Below, in pieces: positions 1 to 7,928 of a stretch of 26,026 bases of DNA. Below the pieces are notes generated by a model, which saw only the letters and a program-made list of their open reading frames with translations, had not been told where the DNA came from and ran no database searches. This DNA comes from a virus: positions 1 through 26,026 of IMG/VR virus record IMGVR_UViG_3300006077_000026. One strand, given 5' to 3'. How positions within the stretch are numbered: position 1 is the stretch's first letter; every line of letters starts with the position of its first letter. The translations under genes and the position numbers were made by a program.

Positions 1-54
1 TGTTAGGAGACGAGGGCTCGAACCCCGCTTAAACATAGCCTGCATGCTCTCCTA
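1..54 (-). other. tRNA-like T-arm/acceptor minihelix
   Basis: Reading the minus strand, TAGGAGA (54-48) pairs perfectly with TCTCCTA (10-4). Directly inside the 3' half is a canonical T-arm: CGGGG, loop TTCGAGC, CCTCG. Only 20 nt separate the 5' acceptor strand from the T-arm, where a normal tRNA has about 41, so there is no room for both a D-arm and an anticodon arm. It may be a tRNA remnant, a truncated tRNA or a tRNA-like RNA domain. The window begins here, so context is missing. Confidence 0.4.
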
Positions 55-60
55 CCGATA

Positions 61-520
61 TTTACCTAGAGTTAATTACGCTCTAGTCATAAAAGCCAGC
101 CGCTAAACTGTCATCGTCTTTTATGCTTCTACCCATATAATATATCTTTAGGATGATATACTATACCGCTCTACAGAAGATGTATCACGTATTGCCAGCA
201 TTAATTTGTTGTCTAGTTGGCATAGCGAGTTAGTACTTTCATTAAAAAGGGATAATGCATGATATTTTTATTCCTCCACTAGGTTTACTCTCATCCTAGT
301 GTGGATATCATTTCACATTACTTTAACTAGTCACTGTATATTGTGCTGACCTTTTGCAACATACTTCACCTAGTTTACTAATACTAACCCTAGCCTATAT
401 TAAATATATAGAATTAGTTTTACAACATCCCGGTTGGAACATCATGACCAGCCAGCTGTTCAACCTGACTTCGCGCTTTTCTATTATACTCCGGCACACC
501 GTTAAGCTTAATGTACGAGT
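61..520. other. Gene-free, hairpin-rich stretch
   Basis: No convincing coding frame is present over about 460 nt. Several stems are visible. CTAGAG (66-71) pairs with CTCTAG (81-86). ATGATAT (259-265) pairs with ATATCAT (305-311), enclosing CACTAGG (277-283) paired with CCTAGTG (295-301). GGTTGGAACA (432-441) pairs with TGTTCAACC (457-465) with one bulged base. The nested pair of stems at 259-311 is the strongest. One or more structured non-coding RNAs, or a remnant tRNA cluster, are possible; the strand cannot be decided. Confidence 0.35.
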
Positions 521-547
521 AGCGGAGCCCATCCCGCGTTAAGGCAA
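521..547 (-). repeat. Post-stop repeat, copy 1 (GCGGG hairpin)
   Basis: First of four near-identical copies of a 27-nt element that sits just 3' of a stop codon in the leftward array. Minus-strand core is GCGGG, 6-nt loop, TCCGC (a 5-bp stem). This copy has TTAAC before the stem instead of TTTAT. It follows the stop of the 553-942 gene by about 5 nt. Confidence 0.7.
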
Positions 548-552
548 AAAGT

Positions 553-942
553 TTATTCGTCTTTAATCTGAACTGGCTCATAACCTTTATCAGACCAATA
601 ATTTATAAGCGCTATAAATGGCTCATAAATTTCTCTCAACACACGAATATGCTTAATGAAATCTTCTTCACTAGTAAGTTCAACATTATGAGCTCTAAAG
701 TTTAAAAGTGAGATACCTGTATCTTGGAGTAGATATAACGCTACATTTTTCCAACCTTTAGTATAATCACCCTGAAAAGCTATTGCCCAACCTATAACGT
801 CATACCAGTTATGAGGAGAAGTTCCAGGAAAAGCATATTTCTTTGGGTGTACTTCTTTACCCCAAAATCTAGCAGCTTCTTCATCCAATTTCTTGATTCT
901 TACTGCTTCACCATTCTTATCAATTATTTTAAATGAATTCAT
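553..942 (-). CDS. Hypothetical phage protein, 129 aa
   Basis: I do not recognise this protein. It is a mixed polar, aromatic-rich globular protein with many Trp and Tyr residues in the middle and second half, and no signal peptide or membrane segment. The start at 942 is chosen because its leader, AATCTAAATT directly before ATG, is shared with the neighbouring gene starting at 1268; no Shine-Dalgarno site is seen. It is the last gene of a leftward group of four small genes whose stop codons are each followed by the same 27-nt repeat. An early or accessory function is plausible from position and size but nothing in the sequence names it. Confidence 0.75.
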   Translation of the reverse strand: MNSFKIIDKNGEAVRIKKLDEEAARFWGKEVHPKKYAFPGTSPHNWYDVIGWAIAFQGDYTKGWKNVALYLLQDTGISLLNFRAHNVELTSEEDFIKHIRVLREIYEPFIALINYWSDKGYEPVQIKDE

Positions 943-967
943 AATTTAGATTTATTTATGATTGTGT

Positions 968-995
968 AGCGGAGCCCATCCCGCATAAAGGCAAA
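968..995 (-). repeat. Post-stop repeat, copy 2 (GCGGG hairpin)
   Basis: Second copy, lying between the stop of the gene at 999-1268 and the start at 942. Minus strand GCGGG-ATGGGC-TCCGC can form a 5-bp stem with a 6-nt loop. GCC just upstream could instead pair with GGC in the loop, so two exclusive folds are possible. Confidence 0.75.
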
Positions 996-998
996 TAA

Positions 999-1268
999 TT
1001 ATAAAGAACTCTTTATTAACTCAATACTAGCACCATTATGTCTAATTATATTAGTCTTTAAGTCAATAAAGTATTTTTCCTCTGGTTGCATTTCTGCCAT
1101 AATGTCTAAAACAACACTAGGAACTTTACCAATTAATCTATTGTAAGTACGGCCTGAAGATTCCATGAATCCTTCATAATACTCATAGTACAAGTTAATC
1201 ATTAAAGCTGCAACTGTATGCCATTCTCTATTTGAATAAGCAATTACAAAAAGTCTTTTATTTATCAT
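999..1268 (-). CDS. Hypothetical phage protein, 89 aa
   Basis: Unrecognised small protein. The N-terminal half is rich in aromatic and aliphatic residues (a run including three Tyr near residues 26-31), and the C-terminal half is more charged. No membrane segment is convincing. The leader before the ATG, ATCATAAATAAATCTAAATT, matches that of the next gene downstream (start 942) almost base for base, which supports this start and suggests duplicated expression signals. The stop is followed within a few bases by a copy of the 27-nt hairpin repeat. Function unknown. Confidence 0.72.
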   Translation of the reverse strand: MINKRLFVIAYSNREWHTVAALMINLYYEYYEGFMESSGRTYNRLIGKVPSVVLDIMAEMQPEEKYFIDLKTNIIRHNGASIELIKSSL

Positions 1269-1292
1269 AATTTAGATTTATTTATGATTAAA

Positions 1293-1320
1293 AGCGGAGC
1301 CCATCCCGCATAAAGGCAAA
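1293..1320 (-). repeat. Post-stop repeat, copy 3 (GCGGG hairpin)
   Basis: Third copy, between the stop of the gene at 1324-1575 and the start at 1268. The core is identical to copy 2, including the GCGGG/TCCGC stem and the ATGGGC loop. Confidence 0.75.
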
Positions 1321-1323
1321 TAA

Positions 1324-1575
1324 TTAATATTTCTTATACTTAGCTAAAATCTCATTATAATAATTTAAAGCATCATCATAATCTTCAAAAGTCTTTCTAG
1401 CTATAGACTTCATTGGTCTAAATGTACTAACCGAAAAACTAACAAGAACATCTCCAGTAAGAGTATTATAGTTAAAGTGAGTAGCTAAATCTAAATTAGA
1501 GCTACCTTCTCCTTCTACAAATACAACATCTAAACCAGCAATTTCACACGAAGTAATATTATCTTTTCTTTCCAT
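1324..1575 (-). CDS. Hypothetical phage protein, 83 aa
   Basis: Unrecognised. A longer frame is open to 1611, but I take the ATG at 1575 because its leader, TAAATTATATTAA directly before the start, matches that of the gene starting at 1788, and because the longer form would run into the repeat at 1593-1619. The C-terminal region (an aromatic/Asp-rich segment, then N-Y-Y-N-E-I-L-A-K-Y) looks like a short amphipathic helix, and the 1627-1788 protein also ends in a K/D-rich helix of the form A-A-K-E-Y-L. The two may be distant paralogs. Function unknown. Confidence 0.68.
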   Translation of the reverse strand: MERKDNITSCEIAGLDVVFVEGEGSSNLDLATHFNYNTLTGDVLVSFSVSTFRPMKSIARKTFEDYDDALNYYNEILAKYKKY

Positions 1576-1592
1576 TTTAATATAATTTAAAA

Positions 1593-1619
1593 AGCGGAGC
1601 CTATCCCGCATAAGGCAAA
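1593..1619 (-). repeat. Post-stop repeat, copy 4 (GCGGG hairpin)
   Basis: Fourth and most divergent copy. The loop is ATAGGC rather than ATGGGC, and one T is missing before the stem. The outer stem GCGGG/TCCGC is intact. It follows the stop of the 1627-1788 gene by 7 nt. Confidence 0.7.
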
Positions 1620-1626
1620 TAATTAA

Positions 1627-1788
1627 TTATAAAGATTCAAGATACTCTTTAGCAGCATTTCTATCTTTAAACTTTGGTAGATCTCTATCCATTCTACCTT
1701 GAAAAGAAGCTACAGTACCTCTATCATTAACATAGAAAGTATCTAATATAACACCTTCTGACCATCCAAAAATCTTTAAATCTTCCAT
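1627..1788 (-). CDS. Small hypothetical protein, 53 aa
   Basis: This short frame begins MEDLKIFGWSEG and ends EYLESL. Support comes from context: it fills the gap in a regularly spaced leftward array, its leader (TAAATTATATTAA then G-ATG) matches the next gene's, and a copy of the 27-nt post-stop repeat follows its TAA. The protein has an N-terminal hydrophobic/aromatic part and a charged C-terminal helix (K-F-K-D-R-N-A-A-K-E). It resembles the small single-domain phage proteins common in early regions, but I recognise no family. Confidence 0.65.
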   Translation of the reverse strand: MEDLKIFGWSEGVILDTFYVNDRGTVASFQGRMDRDLPKFKDRNAAKEYLESL

Positions 1789-1820
1789 CTTAATATAATT
1801 TAAATTTATTTATATATAGA

Positions 1821-1884
1821 TAGGAGTGAGGGAATCGAACCCCCATTAACCGTTCTCCTAAACGCCCTTTGAATTTATCTCCCA
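1821..1884 (-). other. Degenerate tRNA-like sequence
   Basis: On the minus strand a canonical T-arm is present: GGGGG, loop TTCGATT, CCCTC. It is followed by A and CTCCTA. The acceptor 5' partner could be TGGGAG (1884-1879, six pairs including one G-T) or the nearer TAGGAG (1860-1855). Between them CGTT-TAGGAG-AACG can form a four-pair hairpin with a 6-nt loop in the anticodon-arm position. No proper D-arm or 7-nt anticodon loop is seen. It could be a decayed tRNA or a tRNA-like RNA; I would not assign an anticodon. Confidence 0.35.
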
Positions 1885-1970
1885 GGCAACTTAACTTTAA
1901 TTAATTATCCAAATGGAAAACTTTTACTATTGTCTCGTAAGAAAATACTAAAAGCTTTAGCAAAAATAGA

Positions 1971-2002
1971 CTCCCGCTAATATTATTAGCAATTAACGGG
2001 AG
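1971..2002 (-). terminator. Probable intrinsic terminator after 2014-2604 gene
   Basis: On the minus strand CTCCCG (2002-1997) pairs with CGGGAG (1976-1971), with a second stem GCTAAT/ATTAGC inside it, followed by TCTATTTTTG. It starts 12 nt after the stop of the leftward 196-aa gene. Confidence 0.6.
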
Positions 2003-2013
2003 CCTAGAGCACA

Positions 2014-2604
2014 TTAGGATATTAATTGGATTTTAACCTTCTTAACAGGTGCATCTGGATCAGCTTTATAAATGTCTTCAACAGTCCAGTTCTTAGCGTT
2101 AGCAAAGAAAGGTGTGTTAACTTTGGCTGGTCTAGAATACAATCCACTGATAGTCAGGTTATTATCCGCCATTTCTTGTTGGAATTCCTTATACATGTGA
2201 AGTGGATATCTGGTAACCTTATCACCATTATCACGTGTATACTGTGCATTTTCCACGTGCACAATTTTAAATTTACTAGGAATTTGAATCTCATCGTTGT
2301 CACCCATCATCTCGATAAGCAACTTATACAATGGAGTATACTCTGTTTTATCATCAACTGTCGTATCCATATCAACAGCATCAGTAAACATAAGCGCATT
2401 CCTATTAAACCTTTTCACTTCTTCATCAGCTTTGTTCTCGTACAAATAGCTCTTATAGCCATTCGTATTAACTTCTGCATCCTGATAGTGAAACTCAGCA
2501 TCTTGTAAGTCCGAAGCCTTACCATTTAGTAGATTAGACGCTGATACTAGACCTTTCAGCTCTTTTTTGCTGATAGTCTCTACTACTACTTCTTGAGTAC
2601 TCAT
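2014..2604 (-). CDS. Hypothetical protein, 196 aa; paralog of the 3865-4356 product
   Basis: Acidic, soluble protein of unknown function. It aligns by eye with the 163-aa product of 3865-4356. Both have an N-terminal E-L-x-x-L-V-x-A-x-N-x-L followed by a D/Y-rich stretch, a middle Y-K/Y-V-Y segment leading to a conserved F-N/F-K, A and D, then S-K-F-K-I-V or S-S-F-E-V-V, and a Y-P-hydrophobic-Y/L-K-x-x-EFQ region (EFQQEMADNN here, EFQSAQKANGG there). Two copies in one array suggest duplication and an abundant or dosage-sensitive role. The gene has its own upstream motif copies (2731-2748 and 2801-2819) and a downstream hairpin terminator, so it is probably a single-gene unit. Confidence 0.8.
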   Translation of the reverse strand: MSTQEVVVETISKKELKGLVSASNLLNGKASDLQDAEFHYQDAEVNTNGYKSYLYENKADEEVKRFNRNALMFTDAVDMDTTVDDKTEYTPLYKLLIEMMGDNDEIQIPSKFKIVHVENAQYTRDNGDKVTRYPLHMYKEFQQEMADNNLTISGLYSRPAKVNTPFFANAKNWTVEDIYKADPDAPVKKVKIQLIS

Positions 2605-2730
2605 AGTAATTTAATTTAAAATTAATTAATTAATAAAACAATGCGATTTTTGTAAACCCGGAGGGAAAACAAATGCACAACATAACTGTAATAGTAATTA
2701 TGTAATCGCGGTAGTGCAAAAAGATTAATA

Positions 2731-2748
2731 GTCAAAGGGGCGTTGGTC
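2731..2748 (-). promoter_or_regulatory. GACCAAC-type leftward control motif, copy 1
   Basis: Minus strand GACCAACGCCCCTTTGAC followed by TATTAATC. It lies 127 nt upstream of the start at 2604. One of five similar sites (consensus GACCAAC, N6-7, TTTGAC or TGAC, then an AT-rich tract), probably a promoter or operator. Confidence 0.5.
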
Positions 2749-2774
2749 TCGCAAGAGTGAGTCGCAAGAGTGAG
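2749..2774. repeat. 13-bp perfect tandem repeat (2 copies)
   Basis: TCGCAAGAGTGAG occurs twice in direct succession (2749-2761 and 2762-2774), between the two GACCAAC motif copies. It could be a binding site array or slipped-strand duplication. Confidence 0.8.
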
Positions 2775-2800
2775 CCGGTGTGAGCGTAAGGTAGCCTGGT

Positions 2801-2819
2801 GTCAAAGAGGGCGTTGGTC
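2801..2819 (-). promoter_or_regulatory. GACCAAC-type leftward control motif, copy 2
   Basis: Minus strand GACCAACGCCCTCTTTGAC. It lies just after the end of the 2840-3154 gene and, with copy 1, upstream of the 2014-2604 gene. No AT-rich tract follows here, unlike the other copies. Confidence 0.4.
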
Positions 2820-2839
2820 CCCGAAATAAAATAAACCCC

Positions 2840-3154
2840 CTAGAATGGAGGTCTATTGCTGAATATGTCAGTGCCAAGATTGATAGTCCCATTGTCCACA
2901 CTAGCTATGGTGAATTGCTTCATAATCCTATAGCTCTCAAGGTCATCCATAGACTCCAACTTAACATACTTTACACCATCATAAGACAACTGATATATAC
3001 TTCTCCTGCTTATTCTAACTCGTAGACCACTAGGAGATGTGTAAGTATATACCTTGCCATAAGGAGAAAAGAATACTTCTCCATTATTATACACCCCTAT
3101 CTCAGCATTTTTAGGTGCCAAGATAGGAAGTGAATATAAATCCGCATTAGTCAT
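2840..3154 (-). CDS. Hypothetical protein, 104 aa
   Basis: Unrecognised. The protein is beta-rich in appearance, with alternating hydrophobic residues and many Gly, Ser and Tyr (Y-N-N-G-E-V-F-F-S-P-Y-G-K-V-Y-T-Y, then S-G-L-R-V-R-I-S-R-R-S-I-Y), which suggests a small beta-barrel or sheet domain. No membrane segment is seen. Its start lies 2 nt beyond the TAG of the 3157-3465 gene, so the pair is probably translationally coupled. A weak hairpin overlaps its stop codon (CCTCC/GGGGG, followed by TTTATTTT) and may end the transcript. Confidence 0.7.
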   Translation of the reverse strand: MTNADLYSLPILAPKNAEIGVYNNGEVFFSPYGKVYTYTSPSGLRVRISRRSIYQLSYDGVKYVKLESMDDLESYRIMKQFTIASVDNGTINLGTDIFSNRPPF

Positions 3155-3156
3155 AC

Positions 3157-3465
3157 CTATTTAGGTAAGTCAACATGGATTTCTTGTGGAAGGTCAGGTA
3201 GCTCTTGAGCCATCTTAACCATGGCTAACACAGTAATACCTGTGTCTGCATGATTTTTCAACAGCTCTTTAGCATGCTGATCTACAGCATACAGCTCTTC
3301 AGGACTAATAGTCCCGTCAACAATCCTTGGTGCTAATGACTTGATTAGCATTGTGAACGCACCAGCATTCAGTCTCTCTGCGAATGCGTCTAACTCATCC
3401 ACAGTTACATTCATAGCTGTCATTCTTAATGTAGCTACTAATTTGTTTACTTTTTCCATTTTCAT
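3157..3465 (-). CDS. Hypothetical helical protein, 102 aa
   Basis: Unrecognised. The protein is predominantly alpha-helical by composition (long runs of A, L, E, K and M, few aromatics, and Pro mainly near residue 45 and the C-terminus). There are two possible starts, ATG at 3465 and ATG at 3459; I keep the first. The leader TTTAATAAATAAA is A/T-rich without a Shine-Dalgarno site. Upstream, between its start and the stop of the 3528-3785 gene, is the first pseudoknot (3491-3519). It is coupled to the 2840-3154 gene downstream. Function unknown. Confidence 0.72.
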   Translation of the reverse strand: MKMEKVNKLVATLRMTAMNVTVDELDAFAERLNAGAFTMLIKSLAPRIVDGTISPEELYAVDQHAKELLKNHADTGITVLAMVKMAQELPDLPQEIHVDLPK

Positions 3466-3490
3466 TTTATTTATTAAAGTTTTTAAAAGA

Positions 3491-3519
3491 TGAGCCTTTT
3501 TATATCTTGCTCAGGATAT
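3491..3519 (-). promoter_or_regulatory. H-type RNA pseudoknot, copy 1
   Basis: Minus strand order: ATATC, C, TGAGC, AA, GATAT, AAAAAG, GCTCA. Stem 1 is ATATC/GATAT and stem 2 is TGAGC/GCTCA, interlocked as in an H-type pseudoknot with a 1-nt first loop and an A-rich third loop. It begins 8 nt after the TAA of the 3528-3785 gene. Confidence 0.75.
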
Positions 3520-3527
3520 TGAGAGTA

Positions 3528-3785
3528 TTAACGCTTAATTTGTTCGATTAGTTCTCTCGTAACTTCGAACACGTCTCTTTCAGGTAAACCAGGAATCACG
3601 AGTCTCTTGGCTATAGTACGAAGTATACCCCTGCATGCTTCTCCTTGGCGAAGATGATTTTCATCGCCATAATTCCCTTTTAGATCTGTTAGCCAGTAGA
3701 TTTGTAGAGCTTGCTCATATGGTATCTCTACAATGTTTCTCTCTCTGTTTACTCTGATTCCTGTAATTTCTTTTTCTGTTTTCAT
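3528..3785 (-). CDS. Hypothetical protein, 85 aa
   Basis: Unrecognised. A short beta-like N-terminus (I-T-G-I-R-V-N-R-E-R-N-I-V-E-I-P) is followed by an aromatic segment (Q-I-Y-W-L) and two helices rich in Arg and Leu, ending in E-L-I-E-Q-I-K-R. It looks like a compact basic globular domain and could bind nucleic acid or a host protein, but no motif proves that. It is flanked on both sides by pseudoknot copies, one after its own stop and one in its leader (3828-3856). Confidence 0.72.
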   Translation of the reverse strand: MKTEKEITGIRVNRERNIVEIPYEQALQIYWLTDLKGNYGDENHLRQGEACRGILRTIAKRLVIPGLPERDVFEVTRELIEQIKR

Positions 3786-3827
3786 TTTTCTATTATTTAT
3801 AAATTAAATTAAAGTTTTTAAAAAAGA

Positions 3828-3856
3828 TGAGCCTTTTTATAACATGCTCAGGTTAT
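3828..3856 (-). promoter_or_regulatory. H-type RNA pseudoknot, copy 2
   Basis: Minus strand: ATAAC, C, TGAGC, AT, GTTAT, AAAAAG, GCTCA. Stem 1 differs from copy 1 at two positions per strand, and pairing is kept. It begins 8 nt after the TAA of the 3865-4356 gene. Confidence 0.75.
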
Positions 3857-3864
3857 TAAGTTCA

Positions 3865-4356
3865 TTAAGCTGGGATAAGTATAGGCGAAGCTATATGAAG
3901 CTTGCGATAGTATTTATCCTTGTGCTCGTCTGTAGGCTCTGTAGCAAATAAGGTGTCGTACATTGCTTGTGTAGCAACTCCCCCGTTTGCTTTTTGAGCA
4001 CTCTGAAATTCGTCATAACCCTTAAGTGCATACATAGGGTAATGTTTCTTCGAAGTTTCAGGCTCAGGATCCTTTTTGACAACTTCGAAGCTACTAGCGA
4101 GCTTGTACTTGTCTGCAGACGTTAACTCTTCAAGCATAGACTTACCGTCAATGTACATAGCCTTAAAATTCTTAAAGCTAATAGATACATGTTTTTCCGT
4201 AGTATCATGCTTGTATACGTATTTCTTAGTGTTGTAAGTCTTGTTAACCACAACATCTTCGTAAGAATACGTACCTATCTCTAAGTCCTGTGTTAGGACA
4301 TTTCTCGCAGGAACTAGAGATAAAAGTTCTCCGCGAGTAAATTCTACTGTTTCCAT
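3865..4356 (-). CDS. Hypothetical protein, 163 aa; paralog of the 2014-2604 product
   Basis: Acidic soluble protein of unknown function, related by eye to the 196-aa product of 2014-2604. The shared features are the N-terminal G-E-L-L-S-L-V-P-A-R-N-V-L block, the Tyr-rich stretch, S-S-F-E-V-V-K and a D-E-F-Q-S segment near residue 115. It is shorter by about 30 residues, mostly in the middle and at the C-terminus. A GACCAAC motif copy lies 49 nt upstream of the start (4405-4423), so it probably heads a leftward transcript running to 2840. Its TAA overlaps a TGA (TAATGA), and a pseudoknot follows. Confidence 0.78.
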   Translation of the reverse strand: METVEFTRGELLSLVPARNVLTQDLEIGTYSYEDVVVNKTYNTKKYVYKHDTTEKHVSISFKNFKAMYIDGKSMLEELTSADKYKLASSFEVVKKDPEPETSKKHYPMYALKGYDEFQSAQKANGGVATQAMYDTLFATEPTDEHKDKYYRKLHIASPILIPA

Positions 4357-4404
4357 GTGAATTTATTTTTAGTTAATAATTAATTAAAGTTGAGATTGAT
4401 ATAA

Positions 4405-4423
4405 GTCATTTAGGGAGTTGGTC
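4405..4423 (-). promoter_or_regulatory. GACCAAC-type leftward control motif, copy 3
   Basis: Minus strand GACCAACTCCCTAAATGAC, followed by TTATATC. It is placed between pseudoknot copy 3 and the start at 4356, as expected of a promoter or operator for the 4356-to-2840 unit. Confidence 0.5.
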
Positions 4424-4441
4424 CCGAGATAAAATAAGAAA

Positions 4442-4470
4442 TGAGCAGTTTTACGTCATGCTCAGGACGT
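4442..4470 (-). promoter_or_regulatory. H-type RNA pseudoknot, copy 3
   Basis: Minus strand: ACGTC, C, TGAGCA, T, GACGT, AAAAC, TGCTCA. Stem 1 is completely re-sequenced relative to copies 1 and 2 yet still pairs. Stem 2 gains one pair. It begins 8 nt after the TAA of the 4479-4739 gene. Confidence 0.78.
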
Positions 4471-4478
4471 TAAGGTCA

Positions 4479-4739
4479 TTACACTAATGTAGGAAGATCG
4501 TCTAGATCTAGCCTATTAAGTGTATCTAACTTGGATATATCATATATCACAAGTTTATCTCTTAGCAGTACCAATAAATGGTCGTCAGCTATCTTAGCTC
4601 TGATAGCCTTGCCATTAACTACTATTATCTTGCTACCTTTGTCAAAAGCAACAGGATTTATTGATATGCAGTCTGCATTGCCAGAATATAGTCTTCCTGC
4701 TATATCTGCCTTTATTTTATTAAGAGTATCGAAAGTCAT
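4479..4739 (-). CDS. Hypothetical protein, 86 aa
   Basis: Unrecognised. The N-terminal helix (T-L-N-K-I-K-A-D-I-A-G-R-L) is followed by short hydrophobic strands (S-K-I-I-V-V-N-G-K-A-I-R-A-K-I and H-L-L-V-L-L-R-D-K-L-V-I-Y-D), a pattern suggesting a small alpha/beta domain. No membrane segment is seen. It lies in the same leftward unit as 4809-5186, with pseudoknot copy 4 in the leader and copy 3 after its stop. Its stop is TAATGA, as in the neighbouring genes. Function unknown. Confidence 0.72.
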   Translation of the reverse strand: MTFDTLNKIKADIAGRLYSGNADCISINPVAFDKGSKIIVVNGKAIRAKIADDHLLVLLRDKLVIYDISKLDTLNRLDLDDLPTLV

Positions 4740-4772
4740 AACAAAAAATGTTTTAAAATTAAAAATAAGAAA

Positions 4773-4801
4773 TGAGCAGTTTGATTACTTGCTCAGGTAA
4801 T
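4773..4801 (-). promoter_or_regulatory. H-type RNA pseudoknot, copy 4
   Basis: Minus strand: ATTAC, C, TGAGCA, A, GTAAT, CAAAC, TGCTCA. Stem 1 is again changed on both strands with pairing kept. It begins 7 nt after the TAA of the 4809-5186 gene. Confidence 0.78.
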
Positions 4802-4808
4802 AAGGTCA

Positions 4809-5186
4809 TTACACGCTAACCCAGCCTTTATGCACAAACGTGCTTACTTTCTTGATAGAGCCATCAGGCTGAGGAATGTCAGTAGACACTCTATCAGAAA
4901 ATGCGTAAAGTAGCGTAGGCTTCTTGAATAGCGGAGTTCGAGCCAACCACTTTCCTAGCACTAACTGAAACGCAGGGCTTCCAGCAGGTTGTACCAAGAT
5001 TGTGTTAGCTGTAACCCTGATTAGACGCTTAGCCAGAGCGTCAAGGTCAGTATCCTGTTTGATATTAGACAACTGACTTTGAAGGTCAGCGTCAATATCA
5101 GCAAGAAAAACCACTTTACCGTCTAGAGTATCCAGCTGTAGATCGGAAGGCTTATGTGGCGAAGCCCAAACAAATAAATTCGTCAT
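4809..5186 (-). CDS. Hypothetical protein, 125 aa
   Basis: Unrecognised. A hydrophobic/aromatic N-terminus (M-T-N-L-F-V-W-A-S-P-H-K-P) leads into an Asp-rich segment with V-V-F-L-A-D-I-D-A-D, a helical stretch, then W-L-A-R-T-P-L-F-K-K and a C-terminal beta-like segment ending in V-S-V. No signal peptide cleavage site or catalytic motif is evident. It is the first gene of a leftward unit. Its unusually long 5' region contains a structured element at 5212-5352 and a GACCAAC motif at 5369-5387, so leader-level control is plausible. Confidence 0.72.
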   Translation of the reverse strand: MTNLFVWASPHKPSDLQLDTLDGKVVFLADIDADLQSQLSNIKQDTDLDALAKRLIRVTANTILVQPAGSPAFQLVLGKWLARTPLFKKPTLLYAFSDRVSTDIPQPDGSIKKVSTFVHKGWVSV

Positions 5187-5211
5187 GATTAGATAAAGAA
5201 ATTTAAGTTAA

Positions 5212-5352
5212 GAAATAGGATGTTTATTGTACTAAGTACATCCATGAAAACTTAGTTCTATTTCATTACTTGTTATAGGTAAATAGACAAACCCCATAAC
5301 AAGCTACGGCCCTTATATGCTCTCATGAGAGAACAGGGATTGCATACCGTAG
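5212..5352 (-). ncRNA. Structured leader or small RNA with three stem domains
   Basis: Three consecutive domains fold within 141 nt. GAAATAG (5212-5218) pairs with CTATTTC (5258-5264) around an inner hairpin (GATGT/ACATC). CTTGTTAT (5269-5276) pairs with ATAACAAG (5296-5303). CTACGG (5304-5309) pairs with CCGTAG (5347-5352), enclosing CCCT/AGGG and CTCT/AGAG. No frame is coded. All neighbours are leftward, so it is probably the 5' untranslated region of the 5186 gene or a separate RNA. I recognise no known riboswitch class. Confidence 0.55.
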
Positions 5353-5368
5353 TGCAGAATATATAAAA

Positions 5369-5387
5369 GTCAAACTGGCTGTTGGTC
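5369..5387 (-). promoter_or_regulatory. GACCAAC-type leftward control motif, copy 4
   Basis: Minus strand GACCAACAGCCAGTTTGAC, followed by TTTTATATATTC and then TGCACTACGG. The downstream part matches copy 1 as well, which argues for a shared promoter rather than a chance heptamer. Confidence 0.5.
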
Positions 5388-5391
5388 ACAA

Positions 5392-5407
5392 GGGAAAGAT
5401 ACTTCCC
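5392..5407 (-). terminator. Hairpin directly after the 5411 stop
   Basis: GGGAA (5392-5396) pairs with TTCCC (5403-5407) with a 6-nt loop, starting 3 nt after the TAG. There is no T-run, so it may be a transcript-end stabiliser rather than a terminator. Confidence 0.35.
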
Positions 5408-5410
5408 ACT

Positions 5411-5623
5411 CTAGAAGATATAGATATTATCATCTCTCCTAGAGTAGTTATCATCCTTCCTGGGAAATGCTGAGTGAGGCGCTCTTTCACACGCTCTCTC
5501 TACATTGCTCCATCTCCCATGGAGAGAGAGCATTTCCCTGAACTCTTCTCTATCGCATACTGATGCGTAGTCAGAGTTAGCTACTTTGTTTAAGGTAGCC
5601 ACTTCTTTCAAGCTAACAAACAT
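5411..5623 (-). CDS. Hypothetical protein, 70 aa
   Basis: Unrecognised. The frame is open to a TTG at 5650, but I take ATG at 5623 because its leader (AAATACTTTATT) is of the A/T-rich type used throughout the array and because the longer form would start only 6 nt from the pseudoknot at 5657-5692. The protein is charged, with a helical N-terminal half and an Arg/Asp-rich C-terminal half containing D-D-N-Y-S-R-R-D-D-N-I-Y. It is downstream of, and probably co-transcribed with, the small membrane protein at 5706-5864. Confidence 0.65.
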   Translation of the reverse strand: MFVSLKEVATLNKVANSDYASVCDREEFREMLSLHGRWSNVERACERAPHSAFPRKDDNYSRRDDNIYIF

Positions 5624-5656
5624 AATAAAGTATTTTAAATTGATAATCAATTAAAG

Positions 5657-5692
5657 GAGCAGTTGTCCACGTGTTGAGATGCTCAGCTCAAC
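5657..5692 (-). promoter_or_regulatory. H-type RNA pseudoknot, copy 5 (variant)
   Basis: Minus strand: GTTGAG, C, TGAGCA, T, CTCAAC, an 11-nt third loop, then TGCTC. Stem 1 has six pairs of wholly different sequence from the other copies. Stem 2 (GAGCA/TGCTC) is the same. It begins 13 nt after the TAG of the 5706-5864 gene. Confidence 0.68.
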
Positions 5693-5705
5693 TTATCTGA
5701 TGATA

Positions 5706-5864
5706 CTAAAGTATTGCCAATGCACCTTTGCGCATTGTATAGAAACCTAGCAACACCAATGGTATAGACACCATACTATCTAAGGCAACTGCCATACCGA
5801 TAGATGTGATACCAACCATTGTGAAGAAGGTAAACTTTAGTATCATCATAAGATATTTATCCAT
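5706..5864 (-). CDS. Small two-helix membrane protein, 52 aa
   Basis: The protein begins MDKYLMMILKF and ends GALAIL. It is almost entirely hydrophobic. Residues about 6-28 and 31-43 form two possible membrane segments broken by A-L-D-S, and a short basic patch (M-R-K) precedes the end. Size and topology fit a holin-like or small inner-membrane phage protein, but this is only inference because no lysis gene is adjacent. A GACCAAC motif lies about 33 nt upstream of the start, and a pseudoknot variant follows the stop, as for the other array genes. Confidence 0.68.
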   Translation of the reverse strand: MDKYLMMILKFTFFTMVGITSIGMAVALDSMVSIPLVLLGFYTMRKGALAIL

Positions 5865-5897
5865 AATGATGATGATTTAGTTCATGATATATATATT

Positions 5898-5915
5898 CCA
5901 TTGCGGGGGTTGGTC
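5898..5915 (-). promoter_or_regulatory. GACCAAC-type leftward control motif, copy 5
   Basis: Minus strand GACCAACCCCCGCAATGG, followed by an AT-rich tract of alternating TA. It is the nearest copy to a start codon (5864). The second half (TGG rather than TGAC) is the most divergent. Confidence 0.45.
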
Positions 5916-6084
5916 CCTATAATATTGAATATAGTACACTACCCCTACACACCTTCGAATTAATATTAATTTTCATTTGAAATTCTAAAATAAAAAATCA
6001 TTTTCCCTAGAAATTCGAGGTGGGATTAAAAATTATAGTGTATATACGACTCCTTGTAACGCCCCTATTTTTAAAATAAAAAAC

Positions 6085-6118
6085 CCCAATTCCATAGGAA
6101 AAGGGGTGGGGTCTTTAT
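6085..6118 (-). terminator. Intrinsic terminator of the 6129-6860 gene
   Basis: On the minus strand ACCCC and CCCC segments pair with GGGGT across a loop containing TCC/GGA, followed by TTTTTTATTTT. It lies a few bases after the TAG at 6129. This is the clearest leftward terminator in the window. Confidence 0.7.
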
Positions 6119-6128
6119 ATAAGGGACT

Positions 6129-6860
6129 CTATTTTTTACGTCTGTAAAAGAGGCCTCCTGAATTAAAGAGTCTTGGCTTCTGGGCTGAGAACCCTGCCGT
6201 TCCAAAAGTGTTTGGAGTAGGTGGTTGTGGTTTGTATAGAGGCTGGCCTGGTACTACTTTGTTTGGTGCAAAGTTACTGTTAGGCTGAAAGGTCTGAGTT
6301 GGACTATATCTCTGAGCTCTATTTGCTGCAGCCTTAGCTGGGTCATCATTTAGTCTAGTGTTTTTGTATCTGGCCATTGCTGCTTGGTCAAAGTTACTAG
6401 GCTTTTGCTGAGTATATTTGCTTAGTTGAGGATCTCTGTCTGGCATCTTTGCTGCCTTCTCTGCCATGTCCATACTCATTTTGTTACGGAATTGTGTGTT
6501 TGCTGCTGTGGTGTCGGCCTCTGTTCTTATCTTGTCCTGGACTTTTTGCTTTCTGGCATCACCTATCATGTTGGCAATCTTCTGAGTTTGGCCCATTGCG
6601 AATTGTGCTGCTGCCATATATCCTCCTGCTGCGAACTTCTTTGTAGGGTCTGATACTTTACCTCCAGCTTCCTTCATTTTACCTCCTCCGCATTTGGCTT
6701 TACCGCCTTTGCATTTCTTTTCTGCCTCCATAGCTGCACGGATCTTCTTTACTTTACCGCCTTTGCTCTTTTCTTTCATACCTTCTGAGAAGGTTTCTGA
6801 ACCTATTCTAGGGTCTGGATTCCTAGAAGTTACCTTCATAAACATTTTTGCTTTGTTCAT
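6129..6860 (-). CDS. Gly/Lys-rich protein with C-terminal GGLFYRR peptide, 243 aa
   Basis: No family recognised. The N-terminal third is basic and Gly/Lys-rich with repeated K-G-G-K units (residues about 33-70) and a few cysteines, suggesting nucleic-acid contact or disorder. A small hydrophobic, Ala/Gly-rich helix follows (F-A-A-G-G-Y-M-A-A-A-Q-F), then a helical middle and a Pro/Gln/Asn-rich tail. The last 11 residues (N-S-G-G-L-F-Y-R-R-K-K) match the terminal G-G-I-L-Y-K peptide of the rightward virion-type proteins at 10764-13024. This gene is therefore probably a virion component although it is transcribed leftward. It starts at the divergent control region. Confidence 0.8.
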   Translation of the reverse strand: MNKAKMFMKVTSRNPDPRIGSETFSEGMKEKSKGGKVKKIRAAMEAEKKCKGGKAKCGGGKMKEAGGKVSDPTKKFAAGGYMAAAQFAMGQTQKIANMIGDARKQKVQDKIRTEADTTAANTQFRNKMSMDMAEKAAKMPDRDPQLSKYTQQKPSNFDQAAMARYKNTRLNDDPAKAAANRAQRYSPTQTFQPNSNFAPNKVVPGQPLYKPQPPTPNTFGTAGFSAQKPRLFNSGGLFYRRKK

Positions 6861-6981
6861 AATTTATATTTTTAATTGTTACACGTGTAGTTTAATAATA
6901 CGAAATTTAAAGGATGTGCACTTCTGATTTTGTGTGTATTAAAGACGTGTGTAAAAAGGGAGGGGGAATGAGGCGCTAGCC

Positions 6982-7005
6982 GAAGGGGGTGGGTTTTCCC
7001 CCTTC
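6982..7005. terminator. 8-bp GC-rich hairpin
   Basis: GAAGGGGG (6982-6989) pairs perfectly with CCCCCTTC (6998-7005) around an 8-nt loop. No long T-run follows on either strand, so it may insulate the divergent units rather than terminate. Confidence 0.45.
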
Positions 7006-7055
7006 TATATTCTAGAAGCCTCTAGAGGCCCAGTGTTTTCAGGGGTTAAGGTCCG

Positions 7056-7097
7056 TTTGATGGGCACTTTTGCACATTTGATGGGCACTTTTGCACA
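7056..7097. repeat. 21-bp perfect tandem repeat (iteron-like)
   Basis: TTTGATGGGCACTTTTGCACA occurs twice back to back, minus one ambiguity at neither copy. Related GTGCACTT sequences lie at about 6915 and, on the other strand, at about 7144. The array sits just upstream of a winged-helix-like gene, which suggests a binding site for that protein. Confidence 0.75.
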
Positions 7098-7167
7098 CAC
7101 CCTCTTTTTTGACTTTGTAAAATTAACTAATTTTGGCTTACCAAAAGTGCACACGTTGAATTTAAAA

Positions 7168-7178
7168 TAAGTATTATA
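7168..7178 (+). promoter_or_regulatory. GTATTATA promoter-like box before 7194
   Basis: TAAGTATTATA matches the 3' part of the TTTAGTATTATA box found before rightward genes at 8630, 13642 and 22390. It is closer to the start codon (16 nt) than the others. Confidence 0.4.
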
Positions 7179-7193
7179 ATAGTATAAAAGGAT

Positions 7194-7928
7194 ATGAAAG
7201 ATATGGAGAAGAGTTCTAGTATTACATTGTTGACTGATCACAAAGCTATGGGAGTATTTGCAAAGATGCCGTTGTTTAATAAGGAGGGTATGGATTTGTC
7301 TCCTAGCGAAGCTGTTGTATTGAGTTGGATAAGCGTTAGTAAATTTGAAGGATATGGTATAAATAGAGATCTTATGGATAGGAAAGGGAGGGTTAGTACT
7401 TCACTTGTTAGTCTAGAGGCTGCTATTGGTACTAGTAGAAGGGTTATTAGGAGAACACTTGATTCTCTGGTTGAGAAAGAGTTGTTAGAAGTGGAGTATG
7501 GTACTGAGGGTATAGCTATAAAGTATGATCTTACAGTTAGTAAAGAGTTTAGAATGGTGACTAAATCGCTGATAGTATCTGATATATTTAATTTTAAACT
7601 TAAAGGCTTCATAATAAATATGCTTTTAACTACTAGAAACTATGTTATTAGATTTGATAGTATAAAGCATATGTCAGAATCTCTTAAATTGAATAGGAGA
7701 ACAGTAAAGAAGTACTACGAAGAATTAAAGGAGTTAGGATTTGTAACTGATATTAAAGGTACTTCGGTGATAGATATGAGAGAGTTATTTATTGCCTCAG
7801 TGGATAGGAACAGTGACGAGGTTGTTGAGCTTAGAGGGGAATTAGAAAAAGAAAGAAGTAAGAGTGAGTATCTTCTACATAAGCTAGAAGAGCTTGATAA
7901 GAAATTAAATAACTACATAAATAGATAA
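7194..7928 (+). CDS. Winged-helix-type DNA-binding protein (regulator or replication initiator), 244 aa
   Basis: Two segments look like helix-turn-helix units. Around residues 63-100, S-L-V-S-L-E-A-A-I-G-T-S-R-R-V-I-R-R-T-L is followed by a charged helix and a beta-like wing. Around residues 155-180, H-M-S-E-S-L-K-L-N-R-R-T-V-K-K-Y-Y is followed by E-L-K-E-L-G-F-V. A coiled coil (residues about 212-240) ends the protein and could dimerise it. It is the first rightward gene and sits directly beside the 21-bp tandem repeats. I infer a transcription switch or an initiator that binds them; the sequence cannot separate these. An alternative start is ATG at 7203. Confidence 0.68.
   Translation: MKDMEKSSSITLLTDHKAMGVFAKMPLFNKEGMDLSPSEAVVLSWISVSKFEGYGINRDLMDRKGRVSTSLVSLEAAIGTSRRVIRRTLDSLVEKELLEVEYGTEGIAIKYDLTVSKEFRMVTKSLIVSDIFNFKLKGFIINMLLTTRNYVIRFDSIKHMSESLKLNRRTVKKYYEELKELGFVTDIKGTSVIDMRELFIASVDRNSDEVVELRGELEKERSKSEYLLHKLEELDKKLNNYINR

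Follow-up and report, generated by a model that had tools for sequence, protein, structure and literature searches.

A phage pseudoknot family placed just past stop codons, with a possible role as a message-end shield

Introduction

Why should the same small RNA fold stand behind one stop codon after another? The question is raised by the minus strand of a 26-kb viral record (IMG/VR record IMGVR_UViG_3300006077_000026; 26,026 nt, the whole of which is called the window here). A sequence-only reading had reported five H-type pseudoknots on that strand, and we read minus-strand positions 3200-6000 for them. Four are regular copies that stand where they were reported, and the fifth is only a probable relative. 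The four belong to a pseudoknot family that is almost certainly real and that recurs in unrelated phages. The function we favour for it, tentatively, would be to shield message ends against mRNA decay.

Results

The layout is illustrated by the minus-strand copy at 4773-4801. Its stem 1 pairs ATTAC (4801-4797) with GTAAT (4788-4784), loop 1 is a single C (4796), stem 2 pairs TGAGC (4795-4791) with GCTCA (4777-4773), loop 2 is AA and loop 3 is CAAACT; it lies 7 nt past the stop codon of the gene at 5186-4809. Three further minus-strand copies, at 4442-4470 (stem 1 ACGTC/GACGT, loop 2 AT, loop 3 AAAACT), 3828-3856 (ATAAC/GTTAT, AT, AAAAAG) and 3491-3519 (ATATC/GATAT, AA, AAAAAG), each lie 8 nt past a stop codon, those of the genes at 4739-4479, 4356-3865 and 3785-3528, respectively. 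Measured from the ends of the open reading frames (ORFs), the distances of 7, 8, 8 and 8 nt agree with the 7-8 nt first reported. Loop 3 had been described as A-rich and 5-6 nt long; it is A-rich, and its length is 6 nt, as NAAA(CT or AG), in all four. The regular copies are single and spaced 331-614 nt apart, and T-rich DNA follows them. All four sites are among the five matches in the window to the dyad TGAGC-N-GCTCA, where 0.24 were expected and none of 100 shuffles reached five.

The remaining copy (5657-5692, minus strand) has a 6-bp stem 1 (GTTGAG/CTCAAC), followed by C, TGAGC, AT, a 12-nt loop 3 ending in AACT, and GCTC. It lies 13 nt past the stop codon of an ORF at 5864-5706. We grade it as only a probable relative of the regular copies because its loop 3 is 12 nt long and lacks AAA, its closing pair is inverted, and the long-loop form, when sought at other loci, was not found.

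Searches through proteins (a 162-aa gene and the terminase) gave no relatives among viral contigs, and blastn of window positions 1-7200 gave no phage match; relatives were therefore sought by DNA patterns. The family consensus that emerged, of about 29 nt, is A-NNN-C / C / TGAGC / AW / G-NNN-T / NAAA(CT or AG) / GCTC(A). The pattern ANNNCCTGAGCAWGNNNTNAAANNGCTCA, which leaves the three inner pairs of stem 1 free, matched at least 119 stretches in viral contigs, against none for the reversed pattern, and among the matches listed all five stem-1 pairs form in 100 of 129. Bacterial and archaeal genomes totalling 257 Gb gave just 23 stretches that match the same pattern, one of them inside a CRISPR (clustered regularly interspaced short palindromic repeats) array. 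Several of the 23 share one Clostridia context that looks prophage-like. Scans of whole records found one to seven copies in 35 of 40 records, and none with the reversed control. A loose descriptor gave 503 matches, compared with 49 in shuffled and 81 in reversed sequence; with roughly 10-16% of its matches due to chance, our conclusions rest on the stricter sets.

Does the fold persist when the sequence changes? Covariation was judged by pair counts with shuffles and slides, and each stem was tested on sets that leave that stem free. For stem 1, 86% of the free pairs are Watson-Crick in 85 distinct sequences, compared with 33% after shuffling, and double changes occur at all three free pairs. 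In a hand-picked subset of 42 sequences that includes the window copies there are 70 double-change cells against 26.7 in shuffles, and pairing is lost when the partner is slid by one to three columns. These counts agree with the window, where the four regular stem-1 sequences are all different and each pairs perfectly, as the compensatory covariation first proposed requires. Hence covariation is present in homologues from other phages, which is where the sequence-only reading had said its proposal could fail. A natural example is given by the cyanophages S-RIM4 and S-H35, in which an A-U pair of stem 1 at an orthologous site has become U-A while the remaining sequence is near-identical.

Stem 2 had been described as fixed. 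This is true within the window and does not extend to the family. With stem 1 set to AAATC/GATTT and all ten stem-2 positions free, the search returned at least eight types (GAGC/GCTC, AGGC/GCCT, GGCC/GGCC, AAGC/GCTT, GGAC/GTCC, TAGC/GCTA, GAGT/ACTC and GAGA/TCTC), together with four unrelated chance matches. The family therefore has what an H-type pseudoknot needs: two interlocked, covarying stems, a one-base loop 1, and a loop 3 long enough to cross stem 1. Folding programs without pseudoknots show one stem at a time.

The loops vary far less. With AATTC/GAATT as stem 1 and no constraint on any loop base or on the length of loop 3, 86 stretches matched, of which 56 distinct ones were used. 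The family loops are present in 53: loop 1 is C, loop 2 is AA, AT or, once, AC, and loop 3 is always 6 nt (AAAACT in 43, AAAAAG in five and a variant of the first base in five). The other three look like chance matches. Near-fixed loops are consistent with a compact pseudoknot with groove triples, or with a bound partner. Positions 23-24 of the 29-mer, at the end of loop 3, read CT (85%) or AG (13%) and apparently change together, which hints at a contact beyond secondary structure.

Placement was assessed with simple ORF calls rather than curated annotation. Among 336 good copies with flanks, 254 have a same-strand stop codon within 150 nt before them, at 4-8 nt in 133 of the 254, and only three fall within an ORF of 100 aa or more on the same strand. 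In a partly independent set, 41 of 56 copies lie 4-7 nt past a stop codon. The preceding gene is nearly always on the same strand (269 cases, versus 11 on the opposite strand), which argues that the element acts as RNA. The stop codon before copies is TAA in 140 of 196 cases and TGA in 13, compared with 2180 and 817, respectively, of 3610 stop codons elsewhere; the stops before copies are also more often backed up, within three codons, by a second one in frame (35% versus 24%). Copies occur inside operons and, in 31 cases, before convergent genes. The next same-strand gene often starts 20-40 nt downstream, and the place relative to that start is not fixed. Flanks are G-poor, and a T-rich tail (at least seven T in 12) follows just 46 of 353 copies, most having no U-tract. 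We found no shared function among neighbouring genes, and downstream genes are diverse. The element is thus selected for both stems and its loops, and is linked to message ends rather than to particular genes.

A second placement concerns stable RNAs. Among 454 copies, 105 are followed by a tRNA whose 5' end is 3-14 nt away, and in 98 of the 105 this is tRNA-Asp; no copy lies within 120 nt after a tRNA. In the crAss-like phage cr7_1, a copy is found in the intervening segment of a permuted transfer-messenger RNA (tmRNA) precursor (L233:1103-1338), where 3 nt separate it from the coding piece that follows. In a Christensenellales phage (L231:1527-1683), the DUF2800 RNA (RF02960) begins right at the 3' end of the pseudoknot, and the Clostridia loci L126, L127, L130 and L131 have a context like this one.

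The carriers span T7-like, T4-like, N4-like, crAss-like, Lactobacillus, Mycobacterium and cyanobacterial phages, and many uncultured ones. They include ParKuw1 (Autographiviridae), S-RIM4 and S-H35 (Kyanoviridae), EE36phi1 (Schitoviridae), cr8_1 and cr7_1 (Crassvirales), the Mycobacterium phage Labelle, the Christensenellales phage, phiAQ113, phiEF-1.1 and P7.1 of the Lactobacillus group, S-EIVl, Lentibacter ICBM2 and Vibrio D456. The Lactobacillus copies are followed by a T-rich stretch. Weak BLAST matches in Staphylococcus phages were left out of this list, and those in Lak-A1 and CF8 were left uncounted, their sequences as read forming no knot.

Discussion

What is the function of a pseudoknot that follows the ends of so many unrelated genes? 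The sequence-only reading had offered several roles, among which transcript-end protection appears to fit best. We favour, at rather less than even confidence, a shield against mRNA decay. Stem 2 would receive the loop-1 C in its deep groove, and the shallow groove of stem 1 would be filled by the A-rich loop 3; the resulting stiff knot would abut the terminating ribosome and leave little naked RNA behind the gene. Once a host RNase has cleaved the polycistronic RNA at a more 3' position, or RNase P has done so at a tRNA downstream, the knot and its short tail would halt 3'-to-5' exonucleases, and the stretch past the stop codon would be hidden from endonucleases, so that each cistron would have its own end cap. 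In T4, RNase LS cuts appear 20-25 nt past the stop codon where ribosomes pause at a nonsense codon (PMC3014915), a stretch that the knot would hide.

Such a shield would account for placement past stop codons both inside operons and at operon ends, for placement before and not after tRNAs, and for the G-poor flanks. Copies inside operons and before convergent genes are as expected of an end cap, and cleavage by RNase P at the tRNAs that follow some copies would leave 3-14 nt as a tail past the knot. A parallel in placement is with the repetitive extragenic palindromic (REP) and bacterial interspersed mosaic (BIME) elements of E. coli, which are likewise structured RNA in intercistronic spaces past stop codons; REP elements shield the RNA that lies before them from 3' exonucleases. 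The phage knot also lies between genes, past a stop codon and on the transcribed strand, and its sequence and fold are unrelated to those of REP/BIME. Binding of a dedicated phage protein, another of the roles first suggested, is unlikely, since unrelated phage groups carry the knot with the same loops; a mechanical block, or a universal partner such as the ribosome or an exonuclease, is favoured instead.

Several observations weigh against the shield. Two 5-bp stems make a small knot for stopping RNase R. An exonuclease block does not strictly need the exact spacing of 4-8 nt, and this spacing might instead reflect the ribosome. Loops that hardly vary could just as well indicate a bound partner. 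The tRNA-linked copies are probably mostly one lineage, given that nearly all concern tRNA-Asp.

The spacing is the starting point for an unlikely, though coherent, alternative: an element directed at the ribosome, at the mRNA entry site of a terminating ribosome, that blocks sliding or re-initiation or hides the post-stop region from ribosome-coupled nucleases such as RNase LS. Given the footprint of the ribosome, 4-8 nt would put stem 1 at its leading edge. Strong stops are preferred, a gene on the same strand begins 20-40 nt past many of the copies, and the T4 RNase LS cut zone 20-25 nt past the stop falls within the span of the knot (PMC3014915). However, 31 copies precede a convergent gene and have no re-initiation to block, and a role of this kind is not needed where copies precede tRNA or tmRNA. 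The loops lead to a slightly more doubtful proposal, that the knot regulates the gene before or after it by binding a small molecule, or else a host protein conserved across many bacteria. Some small pseudoknots, such as preQ1-I, do act as aptamers, and the loop bases are nearly invariant. Against this, the neighbouring genes share no function, there is no fixed place relative to the next start, and several copies occur per genome.

A transcription terminator or pause signal, with a pseudoknot in place of the usual hairpin, is improbable for the family as a whole. T-rich stretches past the window and Lactobacillus copies, and the minority of copies with a T-rich tail, are what it predicts, and a terminator role is possible in some AT-rich lineages, this window included. 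Yet the U-tract is missing at most copies, the next same-strand gene often begins 20-40 nt later, and a terminator scan does not list the window sites. We give very little credence to stimulation of stop-codon readthrough or frameshifting. Retroviral and luteoviral pseudoknots that act in this way share both the topology and the 4-8 nt spacing, but TGA is avoided before copies of the phage element and second in-frame stops are enriched. In the window, TAATGA stands in frame before three of the four regular copies, and by eye no slippery heptamer was seen before them.

Has the element been described before? No family in Rfam 15 matches it, and our literature searches found no description, though an earlier account outside Rfam is possible. 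The nearest Rfam entry, below its cut-off, is the GP20-b RNA (RF03003), which may be a distant relative. In Lactobacillus phage phiAQ113 it sits where our element does, ahead of the GP20 gene. The GP20-b consensus includes a comparable hairpin whose loop contains UAAAA and, by eye, a flank that could form a second, interlocked stem; in contrast to our model, the Rfam structure contains an additional hairpin and no pseudoknot. At one Lactobacillus site (L235), where both overlap, GP20-b scores 26.2 bits against a cut-off of 36.2, and it has no match in the window, phiEF-1.1 or P7.1.

The pseudoknot of T2/T4 gene 32, to which the sequence-only reading compared these copies, is an H-type knot in a phage message and has a one-base first loop. 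It proved a structural analogue only: it occurs once, 67 nt before the start of gene 32, and is bound by gp32 (PMC3014915), whereas the present family has fixed loops and many copies, which follow the stop codons of genes unrelated to one another. STAXI RNAs are also multi-copy pseudoknots, but they come as two or three in tandem, near DNA-handling genes and with UUCG loops (Weinberg 2010; PMC2864571). With single copies past stop codons, 331-614 nt apart in the window, and no Rfam match, we reject identity with STAXI. Pseudoknot 1 (PK1) of tmRNA has a similar H-type layout with an A-rich third loop. One family copy lies in a phage tmRNA precursor, but it sits in the spacer before the coding piece and not at the PK1 position. 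A type III toxin-antitoxin RNA (ToxI-like, with tandem repeats beside a toxin) was rejected on the grounds that copies are dispersed, one per stop codon; a toxin gene was not searched for.

We further propose, again with reservation, that the knot is a pan-phage RNA device: a sequence-locked pseudoknot used by unrelated tailed phages in several host phyla, which may dock at the terminating ribosome or stop exonucleases, so that every cistron, and every message freed by tRNA processing, keeps a protected 3' end. Its recurrence across phage groups points to one shared way of handling message ends in any bacterial host. The knot offers a simple way to test ideas on phage mRNA stability. It may serve as a marker of transcript boundaries in raw phage genomes, and might act as a short stabiliser in synthetic constructs.

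A CRISPR array of a host targets the knot several times over. This array, on an Ignavibacteria chromosome (L318, L319; G027:C1 from 1029058), has 141 repeats and 140 spacers, and the adjoining cas operon is of type III-A, with Csm1/Cas10, Csm4, RAMP proteins, Cas6, Cas1 and a Card1-like protein. Five of the 140 spacers hold the pseudoknot sequence in full or for the most part; their stem 1 differs, and all five share one orientation. The repeat end ATTGAGAC suggests transcription of the array in the direction leading away from the cas genes, in which case all five guides would be antisense to the pseudoknot RNA. Acquisition of spacers from RNA was considered and set aside, the Cas1 having no fused reverse-transcriptase domain.

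Other features of the window

The window record is, by terminase matches, apparently distantly crAss-like. The minus-strand genes that precede the regular copies encode proteins of 125 aa (4809-5186), 86 aa (4479-4739), 163 aa (3865-4356) and 85 aa (3528-3785). None has a Pfam match, and the 125-, 163- and 85-aa proteins have no PHROG match either. The first ends in TAA with an in-frame TGA next, the second and third in TAA TGA, and the fourth in TAA. The genes after the copies have no Pfam match and include no ssb.

The window contains two other intergenic repeats. One, TTTGCCTTTATGCGGGATGGGCTCCGC, is found after four further stop codons in this gene cluster (minus strand, 505-558, 952-1005, 1277-1330 and 1577-1630) and has no match in viral contigs; its GCC/GGC and GCGG/CCGC could interlock. 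A further one, GGGACCAACNCCC with variants, has four minus-strand copies, at 2801-2821, 4405-4425, 5369-5389 and 5897-5917. Two minus-strand stretches that ARAGORN does not call, at 1-80 (GGTTCGAGCCC) and 1821-1870 (GGTTCGATTCCC), resemble tRNA ends, with an acceptor stem and a T arm, and are perhaps parts of a tmRNA or a split RNA.

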